Source: Streptomyces iakyrus (lineage in GTDB: Bacteria; Actinomycetota; Actinomycetes; Streptomycetales; Streptomycetaceae). Taken from it: a DNA stretch of 64,000 nucleotides. Positions 42,147 to 63,840 of this stretch are shown piece by piece (within the stretch, counting starts at the first letter, position 1; each line of letters starts with the position of its first letter). The DNA lies in assembly GCF_000717055.1 (NCBI RefSeq), contig NZ_JNXI01000001.1:1-64000 (forward strand), written 5' to 3'. The notes beneath the pieces were generated by a model. It was given only the letters and a program-made list of their open reading frames with translations, ran no database searches and was not told where the DNA came from. The translations under genes and the position numbers were made by a program.

Positions 42147-45059
42147 GTGACCGCCCAGCAGAGCAGCACCGCACCGGTGGACCCTCGCCCCGACGGGGAG
42201 GACCAGTTCCCGGCAGGCGCGCAGGTCTTCGTGCGCGACGAGGTGTGGCTCGTGCGGAACTCCGTGCGCACCGAGCACGACGGCGCGAAGGTCGACGTCG
42301 TCGGCGTGTCCGACTTCGTACGGGACCAGGAAGCCGTGTTCTTCACCGGCCTGGACACGATCGAGCTGATCGACCCCCGCCGTACGAAGCTGGTCCGGGA
42401 CGAGTCGTCGAACTTCCGCCGCTCCCGTCTCTTCCTGGAGGCGGTCCTGCGCAAGACCGCACTCCCCCAGTCCGAGCGCCGACTGGCCCTCGCCGACTCG
42501 TTCCTCCTCGACTCCCTGCCCTACCAGCGCCGCCCCGCCGAGCTGGCCCTGTCGGGCCGCAACCTGCGCCCGCGGCTGCTGATCGCCGACGTCGTGGGGC
42601 TCGGCAAGACCCTGGAGATCGGTCTGACGCTTGCCGAGCTAATCCGTCGGGGGCGCGGTGAGCGCATCCTGGTGGTCACGCCGCAGCACGTCCTGGAGCA
42701 GTTCCAGCACGAGCTGTGGACCCGGTTCGCGATTCCTCTCGTACGGCTGGACTCGGTCGGCATCGAGCGGATCCAGCGGGAGATCCCGGCGGGCCGGAAC
42801 CCGTTCACGTACTTCAAGCGGGTCATCGTCTCGATCGACACCCTGAAGAACACCGACCAGTACAAGCACCACCTGGAGCGCATCAACTGGGACGCGGTCG
42901 TCATCGACGAGTCGCACAACCTGATCAACCGCGGCTCCCTGCGCAACCAGCTCGCGCAGATCCTCGCTCCGCGCACGGACGCCCTGATCCTGGCCTCGGC
43001 GACCCCGCACAACGGTGACGCGAAGTCGTTCGCGGAGCTGATCGGCCTCCTCGACCCGGCGGCGATCCGCGACCCGGAGCACTACCGCGCCGAGGACATC
43101 GAGCACCTCTTCATCCGCCGTACGAAGATCAGCCCCGAGGTCCGCGAGCAGATGAAGGGCCAGTGGGCGGACCGGGGCCCCTCGCAGTCAGTACGGTGTG
43201 CGGCGACACCCGCCGAGGAGAAGATCTTCGAGGAGCTGGCGGCCGTCTGGCTGCCCGGAGAGAACGGCACCTCGGTGAGCGGTGTCCCCCTCTTCCCGTA
43301 CACGCTGCTCAAGTCGTTCCTGTCCTCGCACGCCGCCCTGAAGGCGACGGTCAGCGCACGTATCAAGACGCTGGAGAAGAAGAACGAACCGACGGCGACC
43401 CGCGCCGAACTCGCCGCGCTGCGCACGCTCCAGGAGCTGGTGGCACCGATGACGGAGGCGGACTCGGCGAAGTTCGCTGCGCTGGTCGAGCAGCTGAAGG
43501 CGATCGGTGTCGGCCCCAAGTCGGACATGCGGGTTGTGGTCTTCTCCGAGCGGGTGCAGACCCTGGAGTGGCTGCGTACAGCGCTCCCGGCGGCACTCGG
43601 TTTCCGGGGCCGGGCGGCCGAGGAGTCGACACGGGTGATGCACGGCGGCCTGTCGGACGAGCAGCAGATGCAGTGCGTGGAGGACTTCGGCCTGGCGGAC
43701 ACGCCCGTACGCGTGCTGCTGACCGGCGATGTGGCGTCCGAGGGCGTCAACCTGCACCGCCAGTGCCACCAGCTGATCCACTACGACGTGCCGTGGTCGC
43801 TGATCCGCATCGAGCAGCGCAACGGCCGTATCGATCGGTACGGGCAGGCGCACCAGCCGCAGTTCCGCGCGCTGATCCTCACCAGCGAGGTGGAGGGCGC
43901 CAAGGACGACACGGTGGTGGCAGAGCGCCTGCTGGACCGGGAGGACCAGGCACACCGGGCGCTGGGCACGGCCGAAGCGGTGACGGGCCTGTACCGGGCG
44001 GAGGCCGAGGAGAAGTCCCTCATCCAGGATCTGTTGCGTGGCCGTACGGTGGACGAGTCGCTGGACGCGCACCGGGCGGAGGCCGAGGCGGACGCGGCCA
44101 TGGACGATTTCCTGGCGGACTTCTTCGGTTCGGTGGGTGACGCCGGACCGGGCGCGGAGAACGCCGATCCACAGAACACCGAAGGAAAGGGCGCCGGCAC
44201 GTCCGCACCGGGCAACGCGGCGGTACCCCGGCTGTTCACGTCGACCGCCGAGTTCCTCGACGAGGCGCTGAGCGAGGTGTTCCCCGACGCGACCACCAGC
44301 CTGGACCTGCACCGCGACACCGAGTCGGGCCTGCTGTCGTTCCGCCCGCCCACCGACCTGGTGCACCGCCTCAAGGCGCTCCCGCTGGACTACGTACGCG
44401 AACAGCGCCTGCGCGAACGGCTGTTGGTGACCTTCAACCGCCGGCTCGCCGAGCACTCCCTGAAGCGGGCCCGCGAGTCGTCCACGTCCAGCTGGCCGGA
44501 GATCTCCCTGCTTACGGATCTGCATCCGGTGGTGGAGTGGCTCACGGACAAGGTCCTGGTACGCCTGGGCCGGCAGGAGGCGCTGATCATAACGGCGGAC
44601 GTGCCCGAGCCCACGTACCTCGTGCAGGGCGTCTACTCCAACGCGCTGGGCCGTCCGACCGTCGTCAAGTGGATGGGCGTGACGCGGGGCGGCACGGTCG
44701 AGGACGACATGGTCGGCCTGCTGCGCCGCTCCGGAGTCGGACCGACCATGGCCAACCCGATGCGCCACAGCGAACCGGCGACGGCGCTGGAGGCCGGCAT
44801 TCCCGACGCCCTGGCCGCCGCCGAGCAATTCCTCGACCGGCACCGCGACGCCTGGGACGAGCCGCTGCGCAAGCCGATCGACGACTACAAGGCCCGCCTG
44901 GGCGACTGGGAACAGCCCACCCTCGCCGGGGAGCGGACGAAGAAGTCGCTCGCCTCGCTCGCGGACTCGCTGCTGACCACCGGCCGCCCCCTGATGCGGG
45001 TCCTCGCCGTCCTGGTCCCCGACCCGGAAGCGCCCGCGCGTCCGCCATCCACGGCCTGA
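42147..45059 (+). CDS. SNF2-family helicase, DrmD-like
   Basis: A 970-residue SNF2/RapA-type ATPase. The N-terminal domain (GAQVFVRDEVWLVRNSV) precedes motif I DVVGLGKT (GLGKT 151-155), motif II VVIDESHN (DESH 254-257), motif III ASATPHNGD, and motif VI QRNGRIDRYGQ (557-567), diagnostic of SNF2 translocases. The C-terminal 350 residues include an acidic linker (about 660-700). Size and motifs resemble DrmD, the helicase of class 1 DISARM, and the next gene is a DrmMI-like methylase in the same order. GTG at 42147 follows GGGAGG. A weak promoter TTGACC-17-GAGGGT lies at 41995-42023. No drmA, drmB or drmC is present. Confidence 0.87.
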   Translation: MTAQQSSTAPVDPRPDGEDQFPAGAQVFVRDEVWLVRNSVRTEHDGAKVDVVGVSDFVRDQEAVFFTGLDTIELIDPRRTKLVRDESSNFRRSRLFLEAVLRKTALPQSERRLALADSFLLDSLPYQRRPAELALSGRNLRPRLLIADVVGLGKTLEIGLTLAELIRRGRGERILVVTPQHVLEQFQHELWTRFAIPLVRLDSVGIERIQREIPAGRNPFTYFKRVIVSIDTLKNTDQYKHHLERINWDAVVIDESHNLINRGSLRNQLAQILAPRTDALILASATPHNGDAKSFAELIGLLDPAAIRDPEHYRAEDIEHLFIRRTKISPEVREQMKGQWADRGPSQSVRCAATPAEEKIFEELAAVWLPGENGTSVSGVPLFPYTLLKSFLSSHAALKATVSARIKTLEKKNEPTATRAELAALRTLQELVAPMTEADSAKFAALVEQLKAIGVGPKSDMRVVVFSERVQTLEWLRTALPAALGFRGRAAEESTRVMHGGLSDEQQMQCVEDFGLADTPVRVLLTGDVASEGVNLHRQCHQLIHYDVPWSLIRIEQRNGRIDRYGQAHQPQFRALILTSEVEGAKDDTVVAERLLDREDQAHRALGTAEAVTGLYRAEAEEKSLIQDLLRGRTVDESLDAHRAEAEADAAMDDFLADFFGSVGDAGPGAENADPQNTEGKGAGTSAPGNAAVPRLFTSTAEFLDEALSEVFPDATTSLDLHRDTESGLLSFRPPTDLVHRLKALPLDYVREQRLRERLLVTFNRRLAEHSLKRARESSTSSWPEISLLTDLHPVVEWLTDKVLVRLGRQEALIITADVPEPTYLVQGVYSNALGRPTVVKWMGVTRGGTVEDDMVGLLRRSGVGPTMANPMRHSEPATALEAGIPDALAAAEQFLDRHRDAWDEPLRKPIDDYKARLGDWEQPTLAGERTKKSLASLADSLLTTGRPLMRVLAVLVPDPEAPARPPSTA

Positions 45060-45141
45060 GCCCACACCCGCCCACGGCCCGGCCCGCCGCCCCGTCGCCG
45101 CCAGACCTCCCGACCTGAGATTCCCTGAGAAGAGACCGGAC

Positions 45142-48100
45142 ATGACGTACGACTCCCTGGTCAACCGAGGAGACTACTTCTCGGCGCACTACCTCGCCGA
45201 GGTGCTGCCCAAGGACCTCAAGTCGGGCCTGCTGGCCGCCTGGAAGCAGCGCGAGGACGAGGCGAGGGCGGAGGCCGAGCGGGCGGCCGCGGCGGGAGCC
45301 GACGGAACGGCCGAAGCGGTGCCGGGAGAACCGGACGCCGACGCCCTGCCGGTCACCCCGCGCGCGGGCCTGCGTGAGCTGCGCCGCCGCTACTTCCGGG
45401 CCCGTCCCTCCTTCGCGCTCCCCGAGGACGACGAGGACGGCACGGCGGCCGCCCAGGACACCGAGGACGACTCGGCGACATACGACTCCCCTGCCTGGTG
45501 CGAGCGGGTCCGCGCCCTGAACGCGGAGGTGCTGCGCGCGCTCGGCTACGACGCCAAGCCGCGCACGATGACGGTCACGCGCGCCGACCAGCCCTACGAG
45601 GTCCGGGTCGCGCACGCCGAGAAGGGCCTGGTCGCGGTCGACTGCGGCTGGGCCGCCGAACCGGACGCCGCCCTCGACCCGGAGGGCCCCGGCCGCCTCC
45701 TGGAGCCGGTTCCGCTGGACGGCCGCAACACCGTGCCTACGGGCTCGAAGCTCGCCTCGTTCCTCTTCGCCTGCGAGGACGCGCCCCGTTACGTGCTGCT
45801 GCTCGTCGGCGGGGTCGTCGTCCTCGCGGACCGGATGGTGTGGGGCGAGGGCCGCTACCTCGCGGTCTCCCTCGACGCGGCCCTCCAGCGCAACGACACC
45901 AAGGCGGGCGGCGAACTCGACACGATCGCCGCCCTGTTCGGCGCGGACTCGCTGCGCACGCCGGAAGAGGGCGGCGAGAACCCCCTCGCGGAACTCGTCG
46001 GCAAGTCCACCAAGCACGCGGTGGGCGTCTCCAGCGAGCTGCGCGACGGTCTGCGGCTCAGCGTCGAGCTGATCGCGGGCGAGGTCCTGGCCCGGCTGCG
46101 CGAGCAGGGCGTACGCCCCGAGGACATCGGCGAACTGCCCGACCTCGGCAAGCAGTTGACCCGCGAGTCTCTCCGCTACCTCTACCGCGTCCTGTTCCTT
46201 CTCTACGCGGAGGCCCGCCCCGAGCTGGGCATCCTGCCCGCCGACTATCCCGAGTACCAGCAGGGCTACGGCCTCGGCCGCCTCGGCGAACTGATCGCCG
46301 AACGGGACCTCGTCGACGAGAAGTCCCGGCAGGGCACGTACCTGTACGAGTCACTGGACCTGCTCTTCCGCAAGGTGCAGGAGGGCTACCGCTCGCGGCG
46401 GACGCACGGCCCCGCGGGGGCGGAAGCGGACGGCGTGGAGGCCGCCCCCAAGGCCAGCGAGGACGTGGGCCTGCGTTTCGAGCCGCTGCACTCCAAGCTG
46501 TTCGAACCGGAGTCGATCCGGCTGATCGGCCTCGGCACGATCCCGCACCCCCACGACGACACCGACGACGATGACGACGAGGCCGGCCTTGAGGGCTCGG
46601 GCGGCGTCCTGGACACCCGGCTGCGGAACGCCACGCTTTACAAGGTGCTGCGCCTGCTGATGATCACGCGCGGCAAGAAGGGCGAGCGCGGCGGCTTCAT
46701 CTCGTACGCCCAGCTCGGCATCAACCAGCTCGGGGCCGTGTACGAGGGCCTGATGTCGTACAGCGGGTTCATCGCGGGCGACGAGGAGCTGTACGAGGTC
46801 GCGAAGAACGGCGACCCGAAGGACGGTTCCTGGCTCATCCCGAAGTCGAAGGTCGACGACTATCCGGGCAACGTGTTCGTGTACCGCCGCGACGAGGAGA
46901 CCGGCGAGGACGTCCGCGTCAAGTACGCCCCCGGCTCGTTCGTCTACCGCCTGTCCGGCCGCGACCGCCAGACCTCCGCCTCGTACTACACCCCCGAGTC
47001 CCTGACCAAGGTCACGGTCCAACTGGCCCTCCAGCACCGCCTGGACCAGGACGGTACGACGACCGAGGCGCGCGAGCTGCTCGACTGGAAGATCTGCGAG
47101 CCGGCGCTCGGGTCCGGGGCCTTCCTCAACGAGGCCATCAACCAGGTCGCGGCGGAGTACCTGCGCCGCCGCCAGGAGGAGCTGGGCACGCCGATCGACA
47201 CGGAGAAGTACGCCGTCGAGTTCCAGAAGGCGAAGGCGTACGTCGCCCTGCACAACTCCTATGGCGTCGACCTCAACGAGACGGCCGTGGAGCTGGCGGA
47301 GGTGTCGCTGTGGCTCAACACCATGCACCCCGGCATGGAGGCCCCGTGGTTCGGCCTGCACCTGCGACGCGGCAACTCCCTGATCGGCGGCCGCCGTGAG
47401 GTGTACCCGCCGGAGAAGCTGAAGAAGGCGGCCTGGCTGGGGACAACCCCGGAACGCTTCCCCCTGACGGAGGCCGCGAACGGCCTCCCGGTGACGGTGA
47501 CCGAGCGCACCACCCGAAGCGGCTCGGTGCAGCGGGTCACCGAGAACGCCGTGCACCATTTCCTCCTCCCCGCGAAGGAGTGGGGCGCGGTCGCCGCAGA
47601 GAAGGAGGCGAAGGCGCTGGCCCCGGAGGCGGCGCGGGCGCTGGGCAACTGGCGCAAGATGATCACGCGCACGCCAACTGCCAAGCAGGCGGAGCGACTT
47701 CAGGCAGCGGCCCGGAGGGTCGAGTTCCTGTGGGGGCTGGTTGTACGGCGCCTGGAGATCTCCGAGCGGGACATCTCGCGCCGGATCGACGTGTGGGGCG
47801 CGGAGGACGGCTGGCTGCGGTCGCCTGAGGTCGCGGTGCAGCGGGACAAGGTCGTCGCTGATTTGACGGCTCCGGACACTCCCTACTGGCGCCTGAAGAC
47901 GCTGATGGACGCGTGGTGCGCGTTGTGGTTCTGGCCGGTGCAGGAGGCCGGGCTGCTGGACGGTACGGCAGCGGTGTACGAGCGGGGGGCTGAGGAAATT
48001 CCCTCGGGTGCAGTGGCGGAGGGGCTGCGGGCTGCGGACGAGTCCGGGGTGCTGATGTCCTGGGAGACGGAGGATCTGTTCGGCGAGATCACGGGGGGCG

Positions 48101-50388
48101 GCGAGCTGACGGCGGCCTCGGTGGAGCGCCGACGGACGGGGCGGCGCAAGGAGGCCATCGGGGGCACGCGCAAGCGGGCAGTGGTTCCGCTGGCGGGGCT
48201 GGACGACTGGCTGGAGTTCGCGGAGGCGTTGGTCGGCACGGAGGATGTTCCGGCTGACTCGCTGGTGGCGGAGTTCGGGTCGCTGGCGGAGCTTGAGCCT
48301 TATGAGGATGCGCTGCCGGACCTGATGGGGATGGAGCATTTCCAGCAGCTCGAGCTGCGGTTCCCTTGGGCTGGGGTTGCGAGGGATGTGGCGCGGGCGC
48401 AGGGGTTCTTCCACTGGGAGTTGGACTTCGCGCAGGTGTTCGCCAAGGGCGGGTATGACTTGCAGGTGGGGAATCCGCCTTGGGTGAGGCCTGACTGGCA
48501 GGAGGATTTGGTTTTTGCGGAACTTGAGCCTTGGTTCAAATTGAGCGAGAAGCCGACCGCGGAGGAATGGCGGCTCCGCAAGGAGCAGACCCTTGCCAGT
48601 GGAAGGCAACATCCTGCGTTCGTGCTCAGCGAACTGGCCACAACTACTGGCATGGTCGCGACACTCGGAAGCCCTGCAACATATCCATTGCTCGTAGGTA
48701 CACGGGGCGATCTCTACCGAGCGTTCATGGCACAGGTTTGGCGCCACCTTGGCCCAACTGGACGAGGAGGGCTAATCCACCCAGACACTCATTTCGGCGG
48801 CGTACATGAAGGTGGCATCAGGGAGTCCGCATATCGCCATTTGCGCGTGCACGCGCACTTCATGAATTCTGCTAACTGGGCTTTCGAAGATCTGGGTCGC
48901 ACGCAAGAATTTGGAGTTCACATCTACGGTTCGGACGGAGAACCGAATTTCCTGCACCTCAGTGAACTCCGTGGCGCTGACGTACTACCAGCTTCACTGG
49001 CCCACGACGGGCGTGGAGAGGTACCCGGAATCAAACACAACGGAACCTGGGACGTTCGCCCCCACCTCAATCGAGTGGTGCACGTCAACAATGCGCTGCT
49101 GTCCGGATGGCAGCGCCTCACTGGATTCGAAGGGCCCCTTTCACAGACCCCTTTGCTTTATCCGGTCCTGAGAATGGAACAGGGCGCAATCGAGGCAATT
49201 TCCGCCCACACTCCGCGCCTTTCCTCTTTTGAGCCCATGATCACCATCGGGTTCCTCGAAACCAACGCCAAGAAAGATGGCCTGATCCGCTGGAACACCC
49301 AAGCTCCACAAGAACTTGCTGACGTGATCCTACAAGGACCTCATATCTCGGTTTCTCATCCGTTCTCGAAGGAACCCAGAATTCCCTGCAAAAGTCATCG
49401 AGACTGGAATCCCGTCTCGCCAGAGAAAATGTCCGTTGACTACGTTCCGGTAACCAACTACGTCCGGTCCACCAATCGAGAAACCTACCTGACTGCACAG
49501 AGTTCATGGCTCGGGAAACCAGCCACCTCATACTTTCGCTTGGCGTGGAGGGCGATGATCCCGTTTATCACCGAGCGCAGTCTCTTCGCCGCTCTAATTC
49601 CGCCAGGCCCCGCACATGTCCACACAGTGCAGTCCATGGCTATGGCTGACAATCGCCTCACCGCCCTCAATGCCGGCTTCTGGGCGGCTTTGCCTTTCGA
49701 CTACCTCCTGCGCATTACTGGCCGCTCTCACCTGCAGGTTGCTGAGGCTCGCAAAATGCCCGCCCCGGACCCGAAACACCCTCTCGCCCCCGCCCTACTC
49801 CTCCGAACCCTTCGCCTCAATGCCTTGACCGCTCACTATTCACCCCTGTGGGAGGAACTCTACGACCCCCGCTGGGCGGGCTACGAACAGTGGGCCAACC
49901 CTGGCTGGCCGAACCTTGCCCCACTTACCGTCGGCCTTACCCCTACCTGGTCATGCAACATGGCCCTCCGCACCGAGTACGAGCGTCGCGCCGCCCTTGT
50001 CGAACTCGACGCGCTCGTCTCAGTCTGGCTAGGCATCAGCGCCGACCAGCTTGTCGCCATCTACAAAACCCGCTTCCCGATCCTCCACGACTACGAAGCT
50101 GAAACCTACTTCGACGCCAACGGACGGAAAATCGCGGCCAACTACAACACATTCGGCCACGGCCAAACTAAGCAGGATTATCTCGACCTCGTTACCCATT
50201 TGGAAGACCCAGAGAATACCCCACCTGCGGTCCGCTACAGTGCCCCCTTCTATAAGGCCGACCGCGAAGCCGAGATGCGCGCTGCCCATGCCTACTTCCA
50301 AGCTCGCCTCGACGCCGAGATCGCCGCAGGCCGCTGGGCCCCGCCCGAACTCGCGCCCCACCTCACTGAAACAGCGGCGAAAGTCTGA
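45142..50388 (+). CDS. Giant N6-adenine methylase/RM protein, DrmMI-like
   Basis: A 1748-residue Eco57I/PglX-like protein expected to methylate adenine and perhaps mark or restrict DNA with the helicase. A helical N-terminal part (1-600) includes acidic linkers. The methylase core begins ASYYTPESLTK, has motif I EPALGSGAF (653-661) and FGVDLNETAV-like YGVDLNETAVELAEVSLWLNT, and motif IV NPPW at 1111-1114, about 450 residues later. No PD-(D/E)xK nuclease motif is obvious. The specificity region (about 1115-1748) has much lower GC than the rest. It follows the helicase by 82 bp on the same strand. Alternatives are BREX PglX or type IIG enzymes; the paired SNF2 helicase favours DISARM-like. Confidence 0.87.
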   Translation: MTYDSLVNRGDYFSAHYLAEVLPKDLKSGLLAAWKQREDEARAEAERAAAAGADGTAEAVPGEPDADALPVTPRAGLRELRRRYFRARPSFALPEDDEDGTAAAQDTEDDSATYDSPAWCERVRALNAEVLRALGYDAKPRTMTVTRADQPYEVRVAHAEKGLVAVDCGWAAEPDAALDPEGPGRLLEPVPLDGRNTVPTGSKLASFLFACEDAPRYVLLLVGGVVVLADRMVWGEGRYLAVSLDAALQRNDTKAGGELDTIAALFGADSLRTPEEGGENPLAELVGKSTKHAVGVSSELRDGLRLSVELIAGEVLARLREQGVRPEDIGELPDLGKQLTRESLRYLYRVLFLLYAEARPELGILPADYPEYQQGYGLGRLGELIAERDLVDEKSRQGTYLYESLDLLFRKVQEGYRSRRTHGPAGAEADGVEAAPKASEDVGLRFEPLHSKLFEPESIRLIGLGTIPHPHDDTDDDDDEAGLEGSGGVLDTRLRNATLYKVLRLLMITRGKKGERGGFISYAQLGINQLGAVYEGLMSYSGFIAGDEELYEVAKNGDPKDGSWLIPKSKVDDYPGNVFVYRRDEETGEDVRVKYAPGSFVYRLSGRDRQTSASYYTPESLTKVTVQLALQHRLDQDGTTTEARELLDWKICEPALGSGAFLNEAINQVAAEYLRRRQEELGTPIDTEKYAVEFQKAKAYVALHNSYGVDLNETAVELAEVSLWLNTMHPGMEAPWFGLHLRRGNSLIGGRREVYPPEKLKKAAWLGTTPERFPLTEAANGLPVTVTERTTRSGSVQRVTENAVHHFLLPAKEWGAVAAEKEAKALAPEAARALGNWRKMITRTPTAKQAERLQAAARRVEFLWGLVVRRLEISERDISRRIDVWGAEDGWLRSPEVAVQRDKVVADLTAPDTPYWRLKTLMDAWCALWFWPVQEAGLLDGTAAVYERGAEEIPSGAVAEGLRAADESGVLMSWETEDLFGEITGGGELTAASVERRRTGRRKEAIGGTRKRAVVPLAGLDDWLEFAEALVGTEDVPADSLVAEFGSLAELEPYEDALPDLMGMEHFQQLELRFPWAGVARDVARAQGFFHWELDFAQVFAKGGYDLQVGNPPWVRPDWQEDLVFAELEPWFKLSEKPTAEEWRLRKEQTLASGRQHPAFVLSELATTTGMVATLGSPATYPLLVGTRGDLYRAFMAQVWRHLGPTGRGGLIHPDTHFGGVHEGGIRESAYRHLRVHAHFMNSANWAFEDLGRTQEFGVHIYGSDGEPNFLHLSELRGADVLPASLAHDGRGEVPGIKHNGTWDVRPHLNRVVHVNNALLSGWQRLTGFEGPLSQTPLLYPVLRMEQGAIEAISAHTPRLSSFEPMITIGFLETNAKKDGLIRWNTQAPQELADVILQGPHISVSHPFSKEPRIPCKSHRDWNPVSPEKMSVDYVPVTNYVRSTNRETYLTAQSSWLGKPATSYFRLAWRAMIPFITERSLFAALIPPGPAHVHTVQSMAMADNRLTALNAGFWAALPFDYLLRITGRSHLQVAEARKMPAPDPKHPLAPALLLRTLRLNALTAHYSPLWEELYDPRWAGYEQWANPGWPNLAPLTVGLTPTWSCNMALRTEYERRAALVELDALVSVWLGISADQLVAIYKTRFPILHDYEAETYFDANGRKIAANYNTFGHGQTKQDYLDLVTHLEDPENTPPAVRYSAPFYKADREAEMRAAHAYFQARLDAEIAAGRWAPPELAPHLTETAAKV

Positions 50389-50460: not shown

Positions 50461-51690
50461 ATGCCAGGACAGTTGCTCGAACTGCACGTGGAGAATTTCC
50501 GCAGCCTGCGGGACGTGACGATCCCGTTAGGTCCGCTGACGGTCCTCGTCGGTGCGAACGGTGTCGGCAAGTCGAACGTCCTCAAGGTCTTCGACCTGCT
50601 CGCCGACATCATCCGCACCGATCTCGAACCCGCCCTCGAAAGCCGGGGAGGGTTCGACGAGGTCGCGTTCTGGGGCGGGCCCAAGCCGCCGACCACCCTC
50701 CGGATCCGGCTCAAGGCCACCTGGACCACCCACTCCAGCCCCAACGCCCCCGACGAATACGATCTCAAGGTCCGTCGCTACTCGGCCCCTAGCGCCAAGG
50801 GCCGTGACCTCTACCGACTCACCCGCAGCGAGAGCTTCCAGTTCAAGCGGACCAAGGGGCGCGGCCGTCGCATCACCGTGTCGGGCGAGCGCGCCACAGT
50901 GATCGATACACGCCCCAGTAGCGAGCTTGAGGACAGCAGCGAGTTCGGTATTCAACGGTTCAGCAGTGGCCTGTCCACACTGCCTCGGCTGGCAAGTACC
51001 GAGGGCGGTTTTGAAGTAGGGATGGTGGCGGACCGGCTGTCATCATTCCGCGTCTTCGACGTGGATGTGGATGCGGCCCGTCAGCCGTCCCGCCTGAATC
51101 GCGACTACGCCTATCTGTCGTCCAGTGCCGACAACCTGGCCGTCTTCCTGAACTTCCTCAGCGAGGATTCCGCCCTCTGGGAACGGCTTCTGGACGACGC
51201 TCGTTCCGTGCTTCCACAACTTGAGGACATCCAGTTCGAGGCGGTCGGCGGTCCTGCCGCTCAAACTGCTGTCCAACTGGTGGAACGCGGCCTGCGTCGG
51301 CCCACCCCTCTGGCTGACGCTTCCTACGGAACCGTACGACTCCTCGGTCTCCTGGCTCTGCTCTACGATCCCGCGCCCCCTGCACTGACCTGTATCGAGG
51401 AGATCGACCACGGTCTGCACCCCCAGGCATTGAATCTGATCGTCAATCGACTGCGCGAGGCGAGCGCGCTCACTCAGTTCATCGTCGCCACCCACTCCCC
51501 CGCTCTCGCGGATCGCCTTTTGCCCGAGGAAATCGTGATCTGTGAGCGTGACGACGACGGTGCCTCCCTCATCCCCGCCATCACCACGGGTGACGTACGC
51601 GCGATCGTCGAGGAGAGCGGAGACCTGCCGCTCGGTGAGCTGTGGTTCTCAGGTGTTCTCGGAGGCGACCTGACGGGAGACGAGCTGTAG
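50461..51690 (+). CDS. AAA ATPase, OLD/RecF-like (AAA_21 type)
   Basis: A 409-residue ABC-type ATPase. ELHVENFRSLRDVTIPLGP precedes Walker A GANGVGKS (31-38). The coiled-coil or clamp region lies in the middle, followed by the signature-like DASYGTVRLLGLLALLY, Walker B CIEEIDHGLHP (E313/E314, D316) and the switch histidine in ATHSPALADRL. This is the architecture of the ATPase half of OLD, Gabija and PARIS-type nucleases, but without a fused TOPRIM domain. The next gene, starting inside its stop codon, supplies a TOPRIM-like protein. Confidence 0.9.
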   Translation: MPGQLLELHVENFRSLRDVTIPLGPLTVLVGANGVGKSNVLKVFDLLADIIRTDLEPALESRGGFDEVAFWGGPKPPTTLRIRLKATWTTHSSPNAPDEYDLKVRRYSAPSAKGRDLYRLTRSESFQFKRTKGRGRRITVSGERATVIDTRPSSELEDSSEFGIQRFSSGLSTLPRLASTEGGFEVGMVADRLSSFRVFDVDVDAARQPSRLNRDYAYLSSSADNLAVFLNFLSEDSALWERLLDDARSVLPQLEDIQFEAVGGPAAQTAVQLVERGLRRPTPLADASYGTVRLLGLLALLYDPAPPALTCIEEIDHGLHPQALNLIVNRLREASALTQFIVATHSPALADRLLPEEIVICERDDDGASLIPAITTGDVRAIVEESGDLPLGELWFSGVLGGDLTGDEL

Positions 51691-52364
51691 TGGCCGTGAG
51701 CAGAGGCCCCCTGGGGCGTGGCGTCATCGTGCTGGCCGGCGAGGACTCCAACGACTGCCGGATCGTCGCCGAGATCATCAAGCAGCACCATCCAGATCTG
51801 GGCAACGCCCGCCTGGTCGAGATCAGCGACAAAACCCGCCTCAAGACGGCCACCGGGCCTGACCTCGCGGCCCGCGTCCGCACCATCGTCGGCAAAGCGA
51901 AGGGCCGCGCGCTCCGGGCGAAGGGCCCACTCGTCGGCCTGGTGATCCACGAAGACTTGGACGGCTACACGGACGGCGAGTACACCCGTGTCCGCGCGAA
52001 CGTCGCCGGAGCACTCTCCCGCGAGAGCCCATGCAACTCGGCGTTGGCGCTTGCCGCTTGGGAGTCGGAAGCCTGGCTCTTACTCTTTCCGGACGCCTTC
52101 CCGGCCGTCCGGCCCAACTGGAAGGTTCCCGCGCAGCTCCAAGGCCGCGACACCGGAACCATCAAGAGCCCGAAGGAAGACCTGAAGCGCAAGCTCGGTT
52201 CCCCGGCGTTCCGGGAGTGCGACGGGCCCAAGGTCGCCGAGCAGGCCCGATCGCTTGGGCTATTGGCCTCGGGCCCGACCGGCACCAACCGCTCCTACAA
52301 GGACTTCGTCCACGAACTCGGCCAGTGGTCCGCAGTTTCCGTCCCAAGTCCGCGCCGTAAGTGA
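51690..52364 (+). CDS. TOPRIM/DUF4276-like partner of ATPase
   Basis: A 224-residue protein with a TOPRIM-like layout: the conserved glutamate in VLAGEDSND (E18), then VIHEDLDGYTDGE (E88, D89, D91) for the D-x-D motif, and WESEAWLLL (125-132), typical of DUF4276 proteins found beside AAA_21 ATPases. It probably binds Mg2+ and cuts or nicks nucleic acid under ATPase control. The GTG start overlaps the ATPase stop by one base (TAGTG), showing tight coupling. A shared two-gene defence unit is likely but inferred. Confidence 0.75.
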   Translation: MAVSRGPLGRGVIVLAGEDSNDCRIVAEIIKQHHPDLGNARLVEISDKTRLKTATGPDLAARVRTIVGKAKGRALRAKGPLVGLVIHEDLDGYTDGEYTRVRANVAGALSRESPCNSALALAAWESEAWLLLFPDAFPAVRPNWKVPAQLQGRDTGTIKSPKEDLKRKLGSPAFRECDGPKVAEQARSLGLLASGPTGTNRSYKDFVHELGQWSAVSVPSPRRK

Positions 52365-55307: not shown

Positions 55308-57089
55308 ATGCAGAACCCTTCGGACTCATCGGACTCGATGGAGATCGCCGATCCTGAGGAGAACGGCCGGAGCGATACCGCCGACTCACCTGTCGTGGAC
55401 GATCCGACACCCGACTCGGACATCGACTCAGGGACGGCATCGACGGTCCTGGTGGAGGTGCTGCCAGGGGTTGCTGTCGTCTGCGGCGCTGAGGTTCCGG
55501 CGGAACTCAGGCCCGATCTGCTCGACTTCGGGATCGTGTCGGCCGCCGACCGCAAGCAGATCTCCACAGTCCTGGCCGCGATCGGGAACACGGCGACCGT
55601 GGCCGGCAATCTAGGAAACGCATTCGCCAGCGTGCAGGGGCTCTACAGGCTCAGCGCCGCGACACAGGCCTGGCTGAATGCCGGTGCAACGCTCGCCGTC
55701 AAGGACGGCGCGAACCTCGGAGCGGTGTTCGCCAACGGAAAGATTGTCCACCAGGCCCGCCTCCTCCCTGTGGCTTCCGTGAGCGCGGCGCAGAACGCCG
55801 CCTCGATCGGGCCCGCGCTGGCCATGGTCGGTCTTCAGATGCAGCTGAATGAGGTCACGGACCTCGTCAGGACCAACATCGCGCTGACGAGCCAGGTACT
55901 CACAGCCATTCGCAACGAGCAGTGGACCGAACTGACGGGGCTCGTCGCCACCATCGATCGCGCGATCGACCAGGCGCGGGAGATCGAATCGGTCCCCGCC
56001 TCCTTGTGGGACAACGTCGCGGGTAGTGAAGCGTCGCTGCGTAAACAGCTCGACCTGTACCGGCTGAACGTCCGTGGCCACGTCGGGCAGATCGACCGCG
56101 CCGACGCGAGTCGCCGCCGCGAGTATCTCCAGATGAACGCCGAGGCGATCGTCTTCGACGCCAACGCCCTGTTGTCCTCCCTCAAGGCATGGACCGGGTA
56201 TCAGACACTCCGCGCCGGCAGGGCTAGAGCCGCTGGACGCGAAGACGCTGACGAGGCACGGCTCGTCGAGGTCATCGCGCGCGACACTCGCGCGGAGCTC
56301 GACTCCGCTCTCACCGAGGCGACGAGCCTCGCCGACTCGCTGACGCGGGAGCTGCGCATCATCGCCGAGCTCCCCGGACGCGACACACTGCCACTGCCGG
56401 GGAAGCGGAAAGAGTCGATCGCAGCCCGCCAAGCCTCGGCCCGTCTTCTGGAGGCGATCGAGCCGCTTACCGATGCTCTCCTTCCGCCGGCCCCTCCGCT
56501 GGAGGCTCCGGGCGTCGTCTGCGCACCCACATCGCTGGATCTCGAGCCGCACCTTCGCATCCTGCGATGGTTCCTCGAGGACGGTGAGACCCTGCGTGTC
56601 CTCGGCTTCCCCGATCAGCTCGATGCTCTCGGTCCCATTTCCGCGATCTTCGGCGGAGCGAAGGAGAAGCTGACCGCCGGGTGGGACAAGATGGCGGCAA
56701 AGACGCTGGTCGCCGTCACGGATCGCCGCATCATCACCGCCAAGTCGAACGCGTTCCTTGAACAAGGCGAGATCCGTCAAGTCATCCCGATCGACCAAGT
56801 GCGATACGTCCGGACAGCGACCACCCAGGACAAGAACGCGCGCTTGGCGATCGACCTCATCACACGCGACGAGAACATCCGGTGGCTCTTCCAGGCAGAC
56901 ATGGACGCCACTCAAGTGGACGCGCTCGCCGCCGTGCTCGCCGAGTCGATGAAGATCCCTGACGCGGAACGCGATGAGCTGCAACGGCGGCGCCACGTGC
57001 CCATCGAGGCGGGTGAGAAGATCGAGACCACGAGCACAAGGTCTACGAAATCAACTGGGTCCGAGGCCACTGCCGACGATGCCGAGTAG
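55308..57089 (+). CDS. Helical protein with C-terminal PH-like domain
   Basis: A 593-residue soluble protein of unknown role. An acidic, disordered start (1-45) is followed by a long helical middle (about 85-400) with an Ala/Leu-rich stretch NGKIVHQARLLPVASVSAAQ and coiled-coil-like segments (RRREYLQMNAEAIVFDANALL). Residues about 462-548 look like a bacterial PH/YokE-like domain (TLVAVTDRRIITAKSNAFLE, IPIDQVRYVRT). There is no transmembrane helix. A GGGGGAGG site precedes the ATG. It lies 100 bp before the Hsp70 operon on the same strand. PH-like domains often target membranes or assemblies in phage-response genes. Confidence 0.7.
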   Translation: MQNPSDSSDSMEIADPEENGRSDTADSPVVDDPTPDSDIDSGTASTVLVEVLPGVAVVCGAEVPAELRPDLLDFGIVSAADRKQISTVLAAIGNTATVAGNLGNAFASVQGLYRLSAATQAWLNAGATLAVKDGANLGAVFANGKIVHQARLLPVASVSAAQNAASIGPALAMVGLQMQLNEVTDLVRTNIALTSQVLTAIRNEQWTELTGLVATIDRAIDQAREIESVPASLWDNVAGSEASLRKQLDLYRLNVRGHVGQIDRADASRRREYLQMNAEAIVFDANALLSSLKAWTGYQTLRAGRARAAGREDADEARLVEVIARDTRAELDSALTEATSLADSLTRELRIIAELPGRDTLPLPGKRKESIAARQASARLLEAIEPLTDALLPPAPPLEAPGVVCAPTSLDLEPHLRILRWFLEDGETLRVLGFPDQLDALGPISAIFGGAKEKLTAGWDKMAAKTLVAVTDRRIITAKSNAFLEQGEIRQVIPIDQVRYVRTATTQDKNARLAIDLITRDENIRWLFQADMDATQVDALAAVLAESMKIPDAERDELQRRRHVPIEAGEKIETTSTRSTKSTGSEATADDAE

Positions 57090-57189: not shown

Positions 57190-58893
57190 GTGTACGACAC
57201 GACGGACCCGGTAGCCGCTCGTCAGGCGGCGAAAGCCGCTGAAAAAGAACGCCTGCGGCGTGCGCGTGAACGCCGGGAGAGGCAAGGCTCCTCAGGCGTG
57301 AGCGGTTTCGTCCAGCGCAAGTGGCGCTGGCTCGGCGTCGGAGGCAGCGACGCAGTCGAAGCCGTGCAGGCCATGCTCACGGAGGCAACAGCCGCCGTTG
57401 GCATGCCGCAGGCAGAGCGGGCAGTCCTCACGCAGGCCCTCGAAGGCGATCCGGACCGCGAGAGCCTACTGCCCGCAGTGCAAGCGGGGTTGTTGCTCCT
57501 GCCGCCGGAGTCGGTCCTGGGCCATCTGCGAAGCCTCTGGGCCAACGGCGTGCGGTGGCTCAACGAGGCGGGCCTGGAGCGGTGCAGGGTGTTGTGTTCG
57601 ACAGCGCCCAGCCTGGATCTTGTCAGCAAGCGTTCCCAGGCGATCTCGGGCGGCCCCGCCTTCAGCCTCTTCGCAACCGCGGCCACGCGCGGCGCGATAC
57701 CTGTGCCGAACCGCTTTCTCGACGATCTTCTCGCTTGGGCGCCGCTGTCCGTCATCGACGATCTGATCGACCACGGTGGCCTCATGCCCGAGGACGCACC
57801 CTGGACAAGACGGGACGCGGAGGAGGGCCTTTATCTGCGGGCGCGTCTCACCCCCGCCAACATCACCGGTGAGCAGGCCGAACGTCTCGCGTGGCAGGCC
57901 TATCTACGCCGGCAGTCGTTCCTCTGCGGAGAGACCCTTGTCCGACAGGAACCGGACGATGTGTGGGACCTGCTGTACGACGTCGTGATGGACGGCGACG
58001 TGACGGCCATGAACGCACTCGACGCGGCCCTGCCCCGGACTCAGCAGATCGAGCTACGCAACCTCAAGTCCGGTGCGTTGTCCGGCCAGTGGCCGCCGAG
58101 TATGACCGAGGACCGGGGGCTCTGGCTGCTGATGGCCACCCTGTGGCGCCCCGGGAGTCTTGTCGACGCCGGACGCAGTCCGTTCTACGCTCTCGTAGCC
58201 CTGAACCGCGCCTATGACCTCGTGAAGGCCGGTGATCTGGATGCGGCAGCACAACAGGCCTACTCCCTCACCCGGGGCAGCGTGAGCAACCGCAAGGTTC
58301 CCGCCGAGCTGGCACAGGAGGCCCTCGCCCTCGCGGCGTACGTGGCCGTGGCGCAGAGCGAACAGCACGATTCGCCCGCCGGACGGGACAGGCTTCTCGA
58401 CTCCGCCGAGGAGTACGCCGGTAAGGCCGCCGCGCAGGGAGGAGCCGTCGCCGAACGCAACCTCCGGCTCTTTCGCGCCTGGCGGGGGACGAGAAGGAAT
58501 GACCGTGGGCCGTTCAACAATCCCTTCCTCGACATCGGCCTCGATCACGGAGCCGACGGGTGGGAGGAACGCTGCCGGGACATCTTCCGGGAGCGCGAAG
58601 GTGACGCCAAAGCGCAGTCGGACTTGAACATGGCCGAGGAACGCATTCGGGGCGCGCTGCGCGGCGAGGCGGGCTGGGACGTCTTCTACCAGTTGCCGCT
58701 CGACCCGTCGCGATACGTCATGCCCTGTCAGGTGCCGAACCATCTGGTGCCCTCGGTGGAGGCCCTGCCACGCCATACTCCGGTCACCAGTGGCGGCGAG
58801 CTGGAAGCCATCCGTGCCCGTGCCGCCGTCGAGCTGCTCGAAGACTTCCGGACCACTGCCCCACGCCTCGACCGCCACAGTTCCGCGCCGTAG
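57190..58893 (+). CDS. Helical-repeat protein with J-domain-like tail (Hsp70 operon)
   Basis: A 567-residue soluble protein starting from a GTG, with a strongly basic charged helix (AAKAAEKERLRRARERRERQ) at the N-terminus. The middle (about 55-440) is a helical array with TPR-like units (AQQAYSLTRGSVSNR, ALALAAYVAVAQ). Near 455-505 NPFLDIGLDHGADGWEERCR, DIFREREGDAKAQSDLNMAEERI follows the pattern of a J domain (NPYxxLGL...GA...), but the HPD tripeptide that stimulates Hsp70 is missing. First gene of the operon, 42 bp before the next. The J-like reading is an inference. Confidence 0.75.
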   Translation: MYDTTDPVAARQAAKAAEKERLRRARERRERQGSSGVSGFVQRKWRWLGVGGSDAVEAVQAMLTEATAAVGMPQAERAVLTQALEGDPDRESLLPAVQAGLLLLPPESVLGHLRSLWANGVRWLNEAGLERCRVLCSTAPSLDLVSKRSQAISGGPAFSLFATAATRGAIPVPNRFLDDLLAWAPLSVIDDLIDHGGLMPEDAPWTRRDAEEGLYLRARLTPANITGEQAERLAWQAYLRRQSFLCGETLVRQEPDDVWDLLYDVVMDGDVTAMNALDAALPRTQQIELRNLKSGALSGQWPPSMTEDRGLWLLMATLWRPGSLVDAGRSPFYALVALNRAYDLVKAGDLDAAAQQAYSLTRGSVSNRKVPAELAQEALALAAYVAVAQSEQHDSPAGRDRLLDSAEEYAGKAAAQGGAVAERNLRLFRAWRGTRRNDRGPFNNPFLDIGLDHGADGWEERCRDIFREREGDAKAQSDLNMAEERIRGALRGEAGWDVFYQLPLDPSRYVMPCQVPNHLVPSVEALPRHTPVTSGGELEAIRARAAVELLEDFRTTAPRLDRHSSAP

Positions 58894-58935
58894 TCCTGAC
58901 CAACCGTCCGAGCCGAACGAAGCCGAGCAGCACTG

Positions 58936-59568
58936 ATGCCTTCGAAGAAGAAGACTCCGAAGAGACAGCGAGCACACCGCCCGTGTCCCGCGTGCGGCCA
59001 GACGCAACCCGGGACGCAGGGCGCGCCGTCACCGCACAAACCCGGAGGTCTGAAACGCCGCCGGGCGCGGCACACGGACACCGAGGTCAAGCCCGCGGAG
59101 ACCGGTGTCGTCGAAGCTCCTCCTGGTCCTGATCCGATCGACGCGATGACGGTCATCAAAGGGGTGGCGGCCCGCGTGCCGGAGGCTCTGGAGGCCGCCG
59201 GGGCCGACGAGGTGCCCCCGGCCGGCGCGCTCACCGCGGCGGTGCGCAGGGCGGTCCTGGACGAGTTCCGCACCCGCGCCCAGTTTGCCGGTCGTCTCGC
59301 CGAGATCGACGCGCTGCTCTGGTCCCGGGCGGGAGACAGCCGCGAGACCGTCGAGGGCGCGATGACGGCGCACCTGCGGGAACTGCGGCTGCTGCGGGTG
59401 ACAGAGCCCGAGGAGAGCGACCGGTTCGTGGTGACGGAGGGCAAGGGAGACGCCTTCGAACTGCTGAGTCCGGCGTACGTGGATGAGTTGACAGGAAAGG
59501 TCATTCTCGCAGGGCAGCTCCGGCGCATCGCCGGGCCCGCGGGTGTGAGGGCGGGGGAGGAAGCATGA
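58936..59568 (+). CDS. Zn-ribbon protein with GrpE-like C-terminus
   Basis: A 210-residue protein. The N-terminus has KKKTPKRQRAHRPCPACGQ (one CxxC, so at most half a zinc ribbon), then a low-complexity linker. From about 75, helices (LTAAVRRAVLDEFRTRAQFA, GRLAEIDALLWSRAG, VEGAMTAHLRELRLLRV) are followed by a short beta region GKGDAFELLSPAYVDELTGKVILAGQLRRI, the order and spacing of GrpE nucleotide exchange factors. This would recycle ADP on the Hsp70 encoded next, with which it shares an ATGA overlap. Assignment as GrpE-like is tentative. Confidence 0.7.
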   Translation: MPSKKKTPKRQRAHRPCPACGQTQPGTQGAPSPHKPGGLKRRRARHTDTEVKPAETGVVEAPPGPDPIDAMTVIKGVAARVPEALEAAGADEVPPAGALTAAVRRAVLDEFRTRAQFAGRLAEIDALLWSRAGDSRETVEGAMTAHLRELRLLRVTEPEESDRFVVTEGKGDAFELLSPAYVDELTGKVILAGQLRRIAGPAGVRAGEEA

Positions 59569-61637
59569 CGGCTGCCGGAATCGACTTCGGGACCACCAAC
59601 TCGGTCGCCGCCCAGTGGAACGGCGAATACGTCGAGTTGCTGGAGATCGGCGGACAGGGCCTGGACGCCAACTGGAGGCGCGAGGGATTCGAGCTGCTCT
59701 ACCCGTCAGTCGTCGGCACGAGTTCCCTGCGGCCGGGCACCCTGTTCGGCTGGGAGGCGAAACTCCGTTCCGAGCGGGCCGTAGAGGCGTGCAAGCGGAT
59801 GCTGCGCGAGGAGCCGTTCGTCAAACTGGGCGGTGAACGCTTCGCCGCGACCACCGCTGCCGCCGGGGTCTTCCACGCCATCGCGGGGGCGGCGGAGGAG
59901 GAGGCCGCTACCGAGATCCGCGAGGCCGTCATCACTGTGCCCGCCAACGCGACCGGCGCGGCCCGTTTCCGGACCCGCGAGGCCGCCCGTGCCGCGGGCA
60001 TCACGGTCCGCACCCTGCTGAACGAGCCGACGGCGGCGGCGATCGCATACGCGCACGAGATGGAGATCGACGGCGAGTTTCTGGTCTTCGACTGGGGTGG
60101 CGGCACGATGGACGCTACTCTCCTCCTTCACGACGACGGGTTCTTCGACGAGAAGGCGAGCCGGGGCGTCAACCGCCTCGGCGGCCTGGAGATCGACGCC
60201 CGGCTCCGCCGGATGGTCCTCGACCAGGCGCCCGCCCGCGGGCGTTGGAGCGATTCCGAGAAGCGGATGTTCGCCCTGGAGATCGAGCGGGCCAAAATCC
60301 TCCTCTCCCACCAGGGATCGGTCCGCATCCAAACGCCCGACGACGTCACCGTCGAGATCGGGCAGGACGAGTTCTCCGAGGCCATCCAGGACCTCATCAA
60401 CCGGGCCCTCGATCCGGTTGAGGAATGCCTGGAGCAGGCTCGGATCGACCCGCAGGACCTCACCGCGGTACTGATGATCGGCGGCAGCAGCCAGATCCCC
60501 GCAGTGCGCGCCGCGGTTTCGGAGGCACTCGACTGCGAACTTGTGGACACCTCCCTGTGCGACCCGATGACCGCGGTCGCCGAGGGAGCGGCGATCAGCG
60601 CCGCCGCCATGGACGGCGAGCTGAAGAGCATCATCCGGGTGGTCAACACGCACGCCCTGGGCACGATCACCAAGGACCGCGAGGGCAGGCGGAAGTTCAG
60701 CGCCCTCATCGACCGCAACCAGCGCCTTCCGCAGCAGCGCGTGAAGTCGTACGAGCCGACGAAGGACAACGTCTCCCAACTGACTGTCGAGGTCTGGGAG
60801 GGAGACCCGGACCGCGAGGTCGGCCATCCGGACAACGTCAAACTGACCGAACTCGTTCTGACCTACCCCCGACACTGCACAGCCGAGGACGGTGTCTTCG
60901 ACCTGGAGTACACCTACAGCAAGGAAGGCCTGCTGACCGTCCGGGCGACCCTGCAGAAGACCGGCGAGGTCGTCCTCGACGGCGAAGTGAAGGTATTCGG
61001 GGACGGGAACGTCCTGCCGGAGGTGAAGAAGGAGCTCGACCGGCTGCTCGCCCTCGCCCCGGCCTCCCGGCCCGCGACCACCCCGACCCATCCCCAGCAG
61101 GTCCGGCCCCAAGGCCAGGGCAGCAACGGGGCGCCCAAGCCCGCCCCGCCTCGCTCCGCGCCCCAGTCCGCCGGCGCGAACACGGCCGCGCCGCCGCTCG
61201 TGATCGACGGATCCAACCTCGCCTGGAACGGACGCCCGCCGCGTGCAGCGGGCGGAAAGCCGAGCTTCGCGGCATTGCAGGCCGCTGTCCGATCGCTGCG
61301 GTTCAAGCACCCCGATCGCGACATCCACGTGGTGGTCGACGCCACCCTGCGCCACGACGTATCCGCCGAGGAGAGGCCCCTCGTGGAGGCAGCCATCGCC
61401 GACGGCACCGTCGTACAGCCTCCGGCCGGGACCGAGGGACGGGGCGACGCCCTGGTGATCAGCATCGCCGAGGAGGTCAGCGGAGTCATCATCTCGAACG
61501 ACAACTTCGCGCCCTTCCAGAAGGCGAATCCGTGGCTGCGGGTCGCTGGACGGGTCATGGGGGCGACTCAGTCACAGGGTGTGTGGGTGTTCAACCGCCG
61601 CGTACCCAATCCGGCGCCGTCTGCCCAGCGACGGTGA
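59565..61637 (+). CDS. Hsp70 (DnaK-like) fused to NYN ribonuclease domain
   Basis: A 690-residue fusion. Residues 1-380 form an Hsp70 ATPase: IDFGTTNSV (6-14), VITVPANATGAARFRTREAA, NEPTAAAIAYA, VFDWGGGTMDA (about 173-183), MIGGSSQIP (about 302-310). A shortened substrate-binding domain follows (about 385-490, TLQKTGEVVLDGEVKVFG). After a Pro/Gln linker, 544-680 match Zc3h12a-like NYN ribonucleases: VIDGSN (D548, N551), D592 in VVVDATLRHD, D628 in GRGDALVIS, and D646 in SNDNF. All four acidic positions expected for the NYN active site are present. The start overlaps the GrpE-like gene as ATGA. Confidence 0.9.
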   Translation: MTAAGIDFGTTNSVAAQWNGEYVELLEIGGQGLDANWRREGFELLYPSVVGTSSLRPGTLFGWEAKLRSERAVEACKRMLREEPFVKLGGERFAATTAAAGVFHAIAGAAEEEAATEIREAVITVPANATGAARFRTREAARAAGITVRTLLNEPTAAAIAYAHEMEIDGEFLVFDWGGGTMDATLLLHDDGFFDEKASRGVNRLGGLEIDARLRRMVLDQAPARGRWSDSEKRMFALEIERAKILLSHQGSVRIQTPDDVTVEIGQDEFSEAIQDLINRALDPVEECLEQARIDPQDLTAVLMIGGSSQIPAVRAAVSEALDCELVDTSLCDPMTAVAEGAAISAAAMDGELKSIIRVVNTHALGTITKDREGRRKFSALIDRNQRLPQQRVKSYEPTKDNVSQLTVEVWEGDPDREVGHPDNVKLTELVLTYPRHCTAEDGVFDLEYTYSKEGLLTVRATLQKTGEVVLDGEVKVFGDGNVLPEVKKELDRLLALAPASRPATTPTHPQQVRPQGQGSNGAPKPAPPRSAPQSAGANTAAPPLVIDGSNLAWNGRPPRAAGGKPSFAALQAAVRSLRFKHPDRDIHVVVDATLRHDVSAEERPLVEAAIADGTVVQPPAGTEGRGDALVISIAEEVSGVIISNDNFAPFQKANPWLRVAGRVMGATQSQGVWVFNRRVPNPAPSAQRR

Positions 61638-62613: not shown

Positions 62614-63840
62614 TTGGTCGGCAGCGCTCCCGTGCCGGAGCCGGAACAGTCGCCGGACGTTCCCTCCGTCAAGCAAACGGCACATCAGGCGGACGAGCCA
62701 TCGGTCGAGTTCACCGACACCGGACGCAGTACCGGTATCGAAGCCGAGGACATCGGTGAATCCGGACGGACGCCCTTCGACCCGGAGCTCATCGAGGTCC
62801 ATCCCCGCAACCCGACGGTCGACCTCGTCATCCAGCGGCTGAAGCGGGGCCTGATCGACCTCCAACCCGACTTCCAGCGGAAGTCCGGTATCTGGAACGA
62901 GAGGGCGCAGAGCCGACTGATCGAGTCGCTCCTGCTACGTATCGCGCTGCCTACGCTCTACGTGGCAGAGGAGGACGACGAGTCCTGGTCCGTGGTCGAC
63001 GGAGTTCAACGGCTCACCACCATCGTCAGATTCGTCAAGCCCGATGTCTCCGGTCTGGAGCCGCTTCAATTGGGGGGCCTGGAGTACCTCACCCAGTTCG
63101 ACGGCAGCCGCTTTGAGGACCTGCCCGGTCGGATGCAGACCCGCATCCTGGAAACCGAGCTCTCTGTGCTGGTGATCCGGCGGGGAACGCCCGAAGAGGC
63201 CAAGTTCAACATTTTCGCGCGGATCAACACCGGTGGCCAGCCGCTCACCCGGCAGGAACTGCGACACGCGCTGATCCCCGGTTCCGCGCGCAAGCTGCTG
63301 GCCACACTGGCTGAGAGCGAGTTCTTCTTGTCGGCGACGGCTCGCAGCGTCTCCCCCGCCCGCATGGCAGAGCGGGAACTGTGTCTGCGCTTCCTCGCGT
63401 TCGCGATGACTCCGCCCGAGCGGTACGTCACGCAGGACTTCGACGGCTTCCTCCGCAAAGCCATGCACCGCATCAACGCCCTGCCGATTGAAGTGCTGAT
63501 AGGACTGGAGCGGCGTTTCTATCTCACGATGGTGGACTGCAGACGGATCTTCGGAGACCAGGCGTTCCGCAAACAGTTCAGCGGAGTCAGCCGCCGGTAT
63601 CCCATCAACAAGGCACTGTTCGAGACGCAATCGGTGATCGTGGAGCGGTGCACGTCCAAGGAGATCGACATCCTGTGCGAGCGGGCACCGGTTCTCCAGA
63701 AGAAGTTCCAGAAACTGATGGACGACCCTGCCTTCTACGACGCCATCTCCTCCGGCACCGGCGATGCCAACAAAATCAACTACCGCTTCCAGTCCATGAA
63801 AGAGCTGTTCCGCGAGGTGTTGGAGTCCCCGGATGCTTGA
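62614..63840 (+). CDS. DUF262 (GmrSD-type) nuclease-like protein
   Basis: A 408-residue protein of the DUF262/GmrS-N family. RGLIDLQPDFQRKSGIWNERAQSRLIESLLLRIALP, VVDGVQRLTTI (the D-G-x-Q-R-L motif) and FNIFARINTGGQPLTRQELRHAL are all family landmarks. DUF262 domains are ParB/Srx-like and occur in modification-dependent GmrSD enzymes and in stand-alone defence genes. The HNH C-terminal domain (DUF1524) of GmrSD is missing. The TTG start follows GGAGG. It overlaps the next ATPase gene by 8 bp. Confidence 0.88.
   Translation: MVGSAPVPEPEQSPDVPSVKQTAHQADEPSVEFTDTGRSTGIEAEDIGESGRTPFDPELIEVHPRNPTVDLVIQRLKRGLIDLQPDFQRKSGIWNERAQSRLIESLLLRIALPTLYVAEEDDESWSVVDGVQRLTTIVRFVKPDVSGLEPLQLGGLEYLTQFDGSRFEDLPGRMQTRILETELSVLVIRRGTPEEAKFNIFARINTGGQPLTRQELRHALIPGSARKLLATLAESEFFLSATARSVSPARMAERELCLRFLAFAMTPPERYVTQDFDGFLRKAMHRINALPIEVLIGLERRFYLTMVDCRRIFGDQAFRKQFSGVSRRYPINKALFETQSVIVERCTSKEIDILCERAPVLQKKFQKLMDDPAFYDAISSGTGDANKINYRFQSMKELFREVLESPDA

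Follow-up and report, generated by a model that had tools for sequence, protein, structure and literature searches.

GAP1-N2 conflict systems, which centre on a GTPase, were reported by Kaur et al. (2020, PMC7159879) to include HSP70, GrpE and partner proteins fused to DnaJ or TPR. In CoCoNuTs, the nucleotide-binding/substrate-binding domains (NBD/SBD) of Hsp70 are fused to homologues of McrB or McrC, and RNA was proposed as the target (PMC11090510). Druantia type IV is defined by DruE, DruF and DruL alone (PMC8565338). Moreover, the chaperone CmdC of CmdTAC detects the phage capsid and frees an mRNA-modifying toxin (PMC11618068), and bNACHT25 needs the DnaJ of its host (PMC12169576). These five sources were available in part, and statements drawn from them hold for those parts. 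The locus described here comprises three adjacent genes, A, B and C, in a 64,000-nucleotide stretch of Streptomyces iakyrus (contig NZ_JNXI01000001.1, positions 1 to 64,000; the window), for which an earlier note made from the letters of the DNA had proposed a chaperone-gated ribonuclease. The A-B-C set, carried by certain soil bacteria (Streptomyces and relatives), is a conserved chaperone cassette that has repeatedly been joined to defence genes, with an NYN domain as built-in effector in 38 copies. An Hsp70 fused to a predicted RNase and accompanied by its own altered helpers, often beside antiviral genes, suggests an infection-triggered RNA cutter, and the chances seem about even that this chaperone cassette is linked to defence and uses the Hsp70 cycle to control an effector that cuts RNA.

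The window sequence confirmed the three open reading frames in a row as first described, with 42 bp between A and B and an ATGA overlap of B and C. When 84,980 species genomes were scanned for A, 53 stretches were returned, of which 50 were confirmed as loci, and A, B and C follow in order on one strand in all 50; the conserved co-occurrence without which the earlier note would have been refuted is thus present. In the eight loci without an overlap of exactly four nucleotides, the computed first codon is not a start codon and lies one codon earlier. All 50 loci were found by a single peptide pattern from the J-like tail of A, and the set is therefore biased towards copies with this motif. The same genome has further chaperone genes above cut-off (three Hsp70-type, two GrpE and three with J domains), so the cassette is an additional chaperone set.

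Protein C is, as predicted from its sequence, an Hsp70 with an intact ATPase site fused to a C-terminal NYN domain of the Zc3h12a ribonuclease type. It matches the Pfam families HSP70 (1e-57, 196 bits; cut-off 20.6) and RNase_Zc3h12a (8e-7, 29.3 bits; cut-off 23). An alignment of 51 rows (the window and the 50 relatives) was compared with three other Hsp70/DnaK proteins of the same genome; the ATPase residues D7, T10, K77, E154, D176, T181 and D183 are kept in every row, and the five NYN residues given in Table 1, four of them acidic, are invariant in all 38 rows that reach the domain, in line with the complete active site claimed before. In L061, the frame is broken and C ends before the NYN. 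Mean identity within the window's clade is 0.87 for the NBD and 0.85 for the NYN. Other features of C differ from the references: the hydrophobic linker DVLLLDVTPLSLG of the references corresponds to SIIRV-VNTHALG in the window's C, and the LLLD motif of this linker occurs in all three reference Hsp70s but in none of the 51 C rows. A DnaK-like lid is absent, the Pfam HSP70 match stopping at position 489 of the 599 in the model; SBD-beta is followed by a short helix and a Pro-rich linker in the seven family rows displayed, and in any of the 51 rows at most 75 residues separate SBD-beta from the start of the NYN.

Neither A nor B has a match of useful level in Pfam or NCBIfam, and a PDB sequence search returned nothing significant for either. 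When the tail of A was aligned by hhalign with 29 J domains, none of 200 and none of 150 shuffles did equally well (L191, with an empty tail, was dropped from the second set), and the similarity to the J profile covers helices I-III (Prob 85, E 6e-6, 0/150 shuffles). The HPD motif occurs in none of the 50 rows with sequence at the loop (L039 has none there), and D472 is kept in 46 of 51 rows. Foldseek gave no clear fold for A, and no J domain stands among the 50 structural matches listed for the whole-protein model, a list filled by TPR proteins, so the J-like assignment comes from profiles only. The HPD-less J-like tail read from the sequence earlier is thus upheld by profile comparison but not by comparison of whole structures. 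The position equivalent to R167, the DnaK arginine (E. coli numbering) that contacts the HPD of the J domain, is R in the three other Hsp70s of the genome, whereas each of the 51 C rows has T, A, M or S there. With the HPD lost from A and this arginine lost from C, the J-Hsp70 contact of the cassette looks rewired. The parts of A have mean identities of 0.59-0.76 in the window's clade, below those of C, as expected of a sensor. This lower conservation, together with its being the set's large protein of helical repeats, makes A the likeliest sensor of the cassette.

The GrpE-like nature of B was supported by structure comparison and by profile, and B has the GrpE fold with its long helix and beta part, though the Pfam model for GrpE fails. 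This model is absent from the families matched by the 35 members at E 10, and a search of the genome with PF01025 matched only two other genes and not B. The features of the three genes are listed in Table 1.

Table 1. Positions of the cassette genes and their predicted domains in the window.
Feature	Position	Strand	Description
Gene A	57190..58893	+	All-alpha superhelix of TPR/HEAT-like type, 567 aa; J-like tail without HPD; sensor/adaptor role proposed
TPR-like segment of A, residues 316-435	58135..58494	+	Least conserved of five A parts; mean identity 0.59 (window's clade)
J-like tail of A, residues 440-510	58507..58719	+	N444, P445 and G450 in 51/51 rows; HPD lost
Gene B	58936..59568	+	Predicted GrpE-like nucleotide-exchange factor; variable N-terminus, single CPxCG
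GrpE-like fold of B, residues 89-200	59200..59535	+	Long helix, short helix, six-strand beta part
ATGA overlap, B stop/C start	59565..59568	+	From sequence; exactly 4 nt in 42/50 related loci
Gene C	59565..61637	+	Hsp70-NYN fusion, 690 aa; basis Pfam HSP70 and RNase_Zc3h12a
Hsp70 nucleotide-binding domain of C, about residues 1-350	59565..60614	+	Catalytic residues intact, 51/51 rows
Substrate-binding beta domain of C, about residues 351-478	60615..60998	+	DnaK-like helical lid absent, interdomain linker changed
Pro/Ala-rich variable linker of C, residues 500-542	61062..61190	+	Mean identity 0.44 (window's clade)
NYN (Zc3h12a-type) domain of C	61191..61550	+	D548, N551, D592, D628, D646

The surroundings of the 50 loci were classed by scanning one member of each helicase, methylase or GTPase class with PADLOC and finding the others by similarity to that member. 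In 24 loci, the gene directly upstream encodes a defence-type helicase or methylase; it is on the strand of the cassette and either overlaps it or is no more than 180 bp away. A UvrD-like helicase of 1173 to 1345 aa is found 83-150 bp upstream in eight loci; in five, a DpdE-like helicase and then a methylase lie upstream. LeoBC-like and LeoA-like dynamin-type GTPases are encoded downstream in eight loci (L056, L057, L059, L060, L061, L062, L064 and L067), including all five with the DpdE-like helicase; the first Leo-like gene overlaps or is at most 6 bp away in seven of these and 774 bp away in L061. The NYN is present in 38 of the 50 loci, cut by the contig end in one and lacking in 11, and in all 11 NYN-less loci DruE lies directly upstream of A, the two being between 2 nt apart and 4 nt overlapped (gap +2 to -4 nt), with DruF further upstream in ten. 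PADLOC identified the copy in L027 as DruE4 (2171 bits) and that in L078 as DruF4. In L188, from another family, DruF, DruL (6e-93), DruE, A, B and the Hsp70 gene stand in sequence, and the triad is also directly behind DruE in L173. In a tree of the Hsp70 part, the NYN-less DruE group forms one clade (100/100) and the NYN copies, including those of Nocardiopsis, occupy the rest; the position of Nocardiopsis beside the DruE group may be a long-branch effect. Since 11 of the 50 loci have an NYN-less Hsp70 and join the triad to Druantia type IV instead, the chaperone cassette is the wider unit and the NYN one of its options for an effector. The earlier proposal is accordingly supported in part: the fusion, the GrpE-like and HPD-less J-like partners, their co-occurrence and the frequent placement with defence genes are borne out, RNA cleavage, ATP gating, antiphage activity and the sensing of misfolded phage proteins are putative, and the reading needs changing for these 11 loci.

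We infer a defence role for the cassette and RNA cutting gated by the Hsp70 cycle, and the client, the antiphage role and every biochemical step of the following cycle are proposed in the same sense. The superhelix of A would recognise an infection-related client, which might be a phage protein, a stalled complex or the product of a partner helicase, and would deliver it to C via the HPD-less J-like tail. ATP hydrolysis would then clamp C onto the client, and clamping or clustering of C might bring NYN domains together or expose them, leading to RNA cutting; this is conceivable because C lacks the lid and a flexible linker holds the NYN on the far side of the SBD. The dedicated GrpE-like factor B would exchange the nucleotide and reset C. 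The effector would be the NYN of C where present and the helicase-nuclease neighbours where it is absent, and in relatives the A-B-Hsp70 triad is joined to operons of Druantia type IV, of a DpdE-like helicase with methylase or of a UvrD-like helicase. The fuller version of this reading, an antiphage system in which a dedicated, rewired and complete Hsp70 machine is an ATP-driven client sensor that switches the fused RNase and also a portable sensing cassette for several helicase-type systems, is a tentative one. If true, the Hsp70 ATP cycle would be an infection switch, with rebuilt J and GrpE contacts that avoid cross-talk with the housekeeping DnaK; in addition, protein-folding surveillance would be linked directly to RNA degradation in bacterial immunity, and a chaperone layer would be added to Druantia type IV.

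Several observations weigh against this defence reading. The J and GrpE assignments rest on remote comparison: B was modelled with middling confidence (mean pLDDT 68.5), its match to GrpE by Foldseek alone is weak (E 1.2), and adding remote relatives lowered its GrpE profile from Prob 80 to 50, still with 0/150 shuffles. The N-terminus of B (identity 0.50) is also more variable than any part of A. Beyond the 24 loci above, the other 26, which include the window's close kin, have no helicase or methylase of these classes directly upstream; three of them have the Leo-like pair downstream. Full-length DruE4 occurs in nine of 200 genomes drawn from the family, with the triad behind four and absent beside five. 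Moreover, L189-L191 have a split version: the similarity of a long protein to the body of A is only weak (E 2e-5 to 9e-4; L190 by the A6 profile), the Hsp70 has no NYN, the J-like protein, also HPD-less, is encoded separately, and a GrpE-like gene was detected in L190 and L191 and not in L189. Since L189 and L190, from two genomes of one genus, share their surroundings, the split version looks like a resident chromosomal function. Its occurrence in other actinobacteria points to a further role of the set, present or past, and so to a beginning or a parallel existence apart from defence.

Hsp70 and GrpE are proteostasis proteins, and the resident-looking split version, like the 26 loci, would suit a role in stress or RNA quality control in which nascent chains that have aggregated or stalled on the ribosome are bound by Hsp70 and their associated mRNA is degraded by the NYN, the defence neighbours being owed to the cassette's travel in variable islands. 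This explanation is rather unlikely, given the defence-type genes on the same strand in nearly half of the loci (24/50), the other Hsp70, GrpE and J genes that the genome already has, and a patchy distribution, A being found in at least 11 of the 200 family genomes. In that draw, B occurs in 12 genomes and a strong NYN in nine (seven weak matches of 21-26 bits among 16 genomes were excluded); the 11 genomes with A have B adjacent and the nine with NYN have B, the NYN of G021 lies on another contig, and no A was found in G034. These counts are lower bounds, because the triad behind DruE in G103 was missed by the searches with A1 and A2. Among 394 genomes of the class, ten match A; three of these are full copies, from two other families, and another three match in essentially the J-like tail only.

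The tight junction of DruE and A in every NYN-less locus, and the recurrence of three helicase/methylase classes, would also fit a triad that helps to assemble or license the large helicases of defence systems (DruE, DpdE-like, UvrD-like) as their chaperone, with the NYN as a secondary add-on or fail-safe toxin. An independent arrangement points the same way, namely L187 (G252), where an NYN copy is followed directly by a DruE-like helicase and preceded by a 1105-aa protein that matches no family. This role is nevertheless unlikely, as the 26 loci have no such gene directly upstream, five of the nine full-length DruE4 genes have no triad, and the NYN residues are strictly kept. The five DruE4 genomes without the triad likewise led us to reject the idea that Druantia type IV requires it. 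Finally, it is improbable that the SBD of a lid-less C binds RNA or ribosomes so that Hsp70 targets the NYN, with A and B as ATPase regulators only: the missing lid and the RNA-binding Hsp70 modules suggested in CoCoNuTs would agree with this, but very weak ATP hydrolysis is expected by the authors of that work (PMC11090510), and in the cassette the invariant ATPase residues of C and the dedicated GrpE-like factor kept in 50/50 loci point to real Hsp70 cycling.

Within the window, the cassette lies in an island with other genes of interest. The HEC-01A/HEC-01B pair, a candidate defence system, is located upstream of the cassette at 50461-52364 (PADLOC 1e-197 and 3e-87), and an NsnA-like gene with a GmrSD_N domain is at 62614-63840 (PADLOC 8e-130). 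Genes for a protein kinase, a DrmD-like SNF2 helicase and a type IIG-like methylase stand in a row on the same strand at 40357-50388, and just outside the window an open frame of 2372 aa (G000:C1:71409-74495) gave weak DruE matches. A 593-aa protein without family match is encoded at 55308-57089, 100 bp upstream of A; it was rejected as a fourth component, being found before A in only one of 50 relatives (L039) and in G107. A phage origin was also rejected, five IMG/VR loci having Hsp70 matches of 27-29% that end by residue 437 and no NYN. The protein kinase-NYN fusion P0343 was not used as an effector swap, its middle being helicase-like by eye, and it may have arisen when a helicase gene was rearranged; P0347 and P0309, with NYN and no full Hsp70, appeared by eye to be deletions and were not used.

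Among described systems, the GAP1-N2 systems resemble the cassette in being predicted conflict systems, mainly of actinobacteria and firmicutes, that combine Hsp70 with its own GrpE and a J/TPR protein (PMC7159879). They are, however, built round a GTPase and an FNIII protein as far as the available text goes, whereas in the cassette the Hsp70 carries a nuclease-type domain and the J-like domain has no HPD; NYN is not mentioned in the main text of that paper. No Pfam match to a GTPase or FNIII was obtained in the eight window genes scanned, with the proviso that GAP1-N2 itself may lack a model. CoCoNuTs likewise join Hsp70 to nuclease defence machinery, but very inefficient ATP hydrolysis is expected there and C has intact ATPase residues; GrpE, DnaJ and NYN are not mentioned in the main text of the paper (PMC11090510). 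Neither A, B and C nor five neighbouring genes that were scanned match McrB-like GTPase or McrC in Pfam.

With Druantia type IV, the link is positional, the triad being directly behind DruE in 11 of the 50 relatives, in L188 and in L173. PADLOC found no Dru gene among nine window genes scanned, and the window copy has no Druantia core beside it. No literature pairing Druantia with GrpE was found. The PADLOC models gave no match for A and one weak match for B (PifA, E 0.002, in a remote copy). The M61B model of PDC-M61 matched part of the Hsp70 in C weakly (E 8e-6, 22.8 bits), and in two relatives scanned, as is expected between distant Hsp70-type ATPases, and the matched stretch does not contain the NYN. 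The NYN ribonucleases of the Zc3h12a/Regnase type are like C in the Pfam match above cut-off and in the four acidic residues. These NYN domains usually occur with a zinc finger or another RNA-binding part; in C, the domain is fused to Hsp70 instead.

As well, CmdTAC (PMC11618068) and bNACHT25 (PMC12169576) parallel the cassette in that a chaperone or co-chaperone senses the phage and acts ahead of an effector, but the former relies on a toxin-antitoxin complex chaperone and the latter on the DnaJ of the host, and an Hsp70-nuclease fusion is described in neither, within the portions available. The view that the architecture was undescribed stands insofar as no description of the A-B-C cassette was found among the literature matches listed, judged by title and the start of the abstract, with many subscription papers outside the search; it is qualified by the Hsp70/GrpE/J conflict sets in print (PMC7159879). 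Hsp70/GrpE conflict systems have already been published, and there is a fair chance that the A-B-C cassette itself is more than a variant of these.

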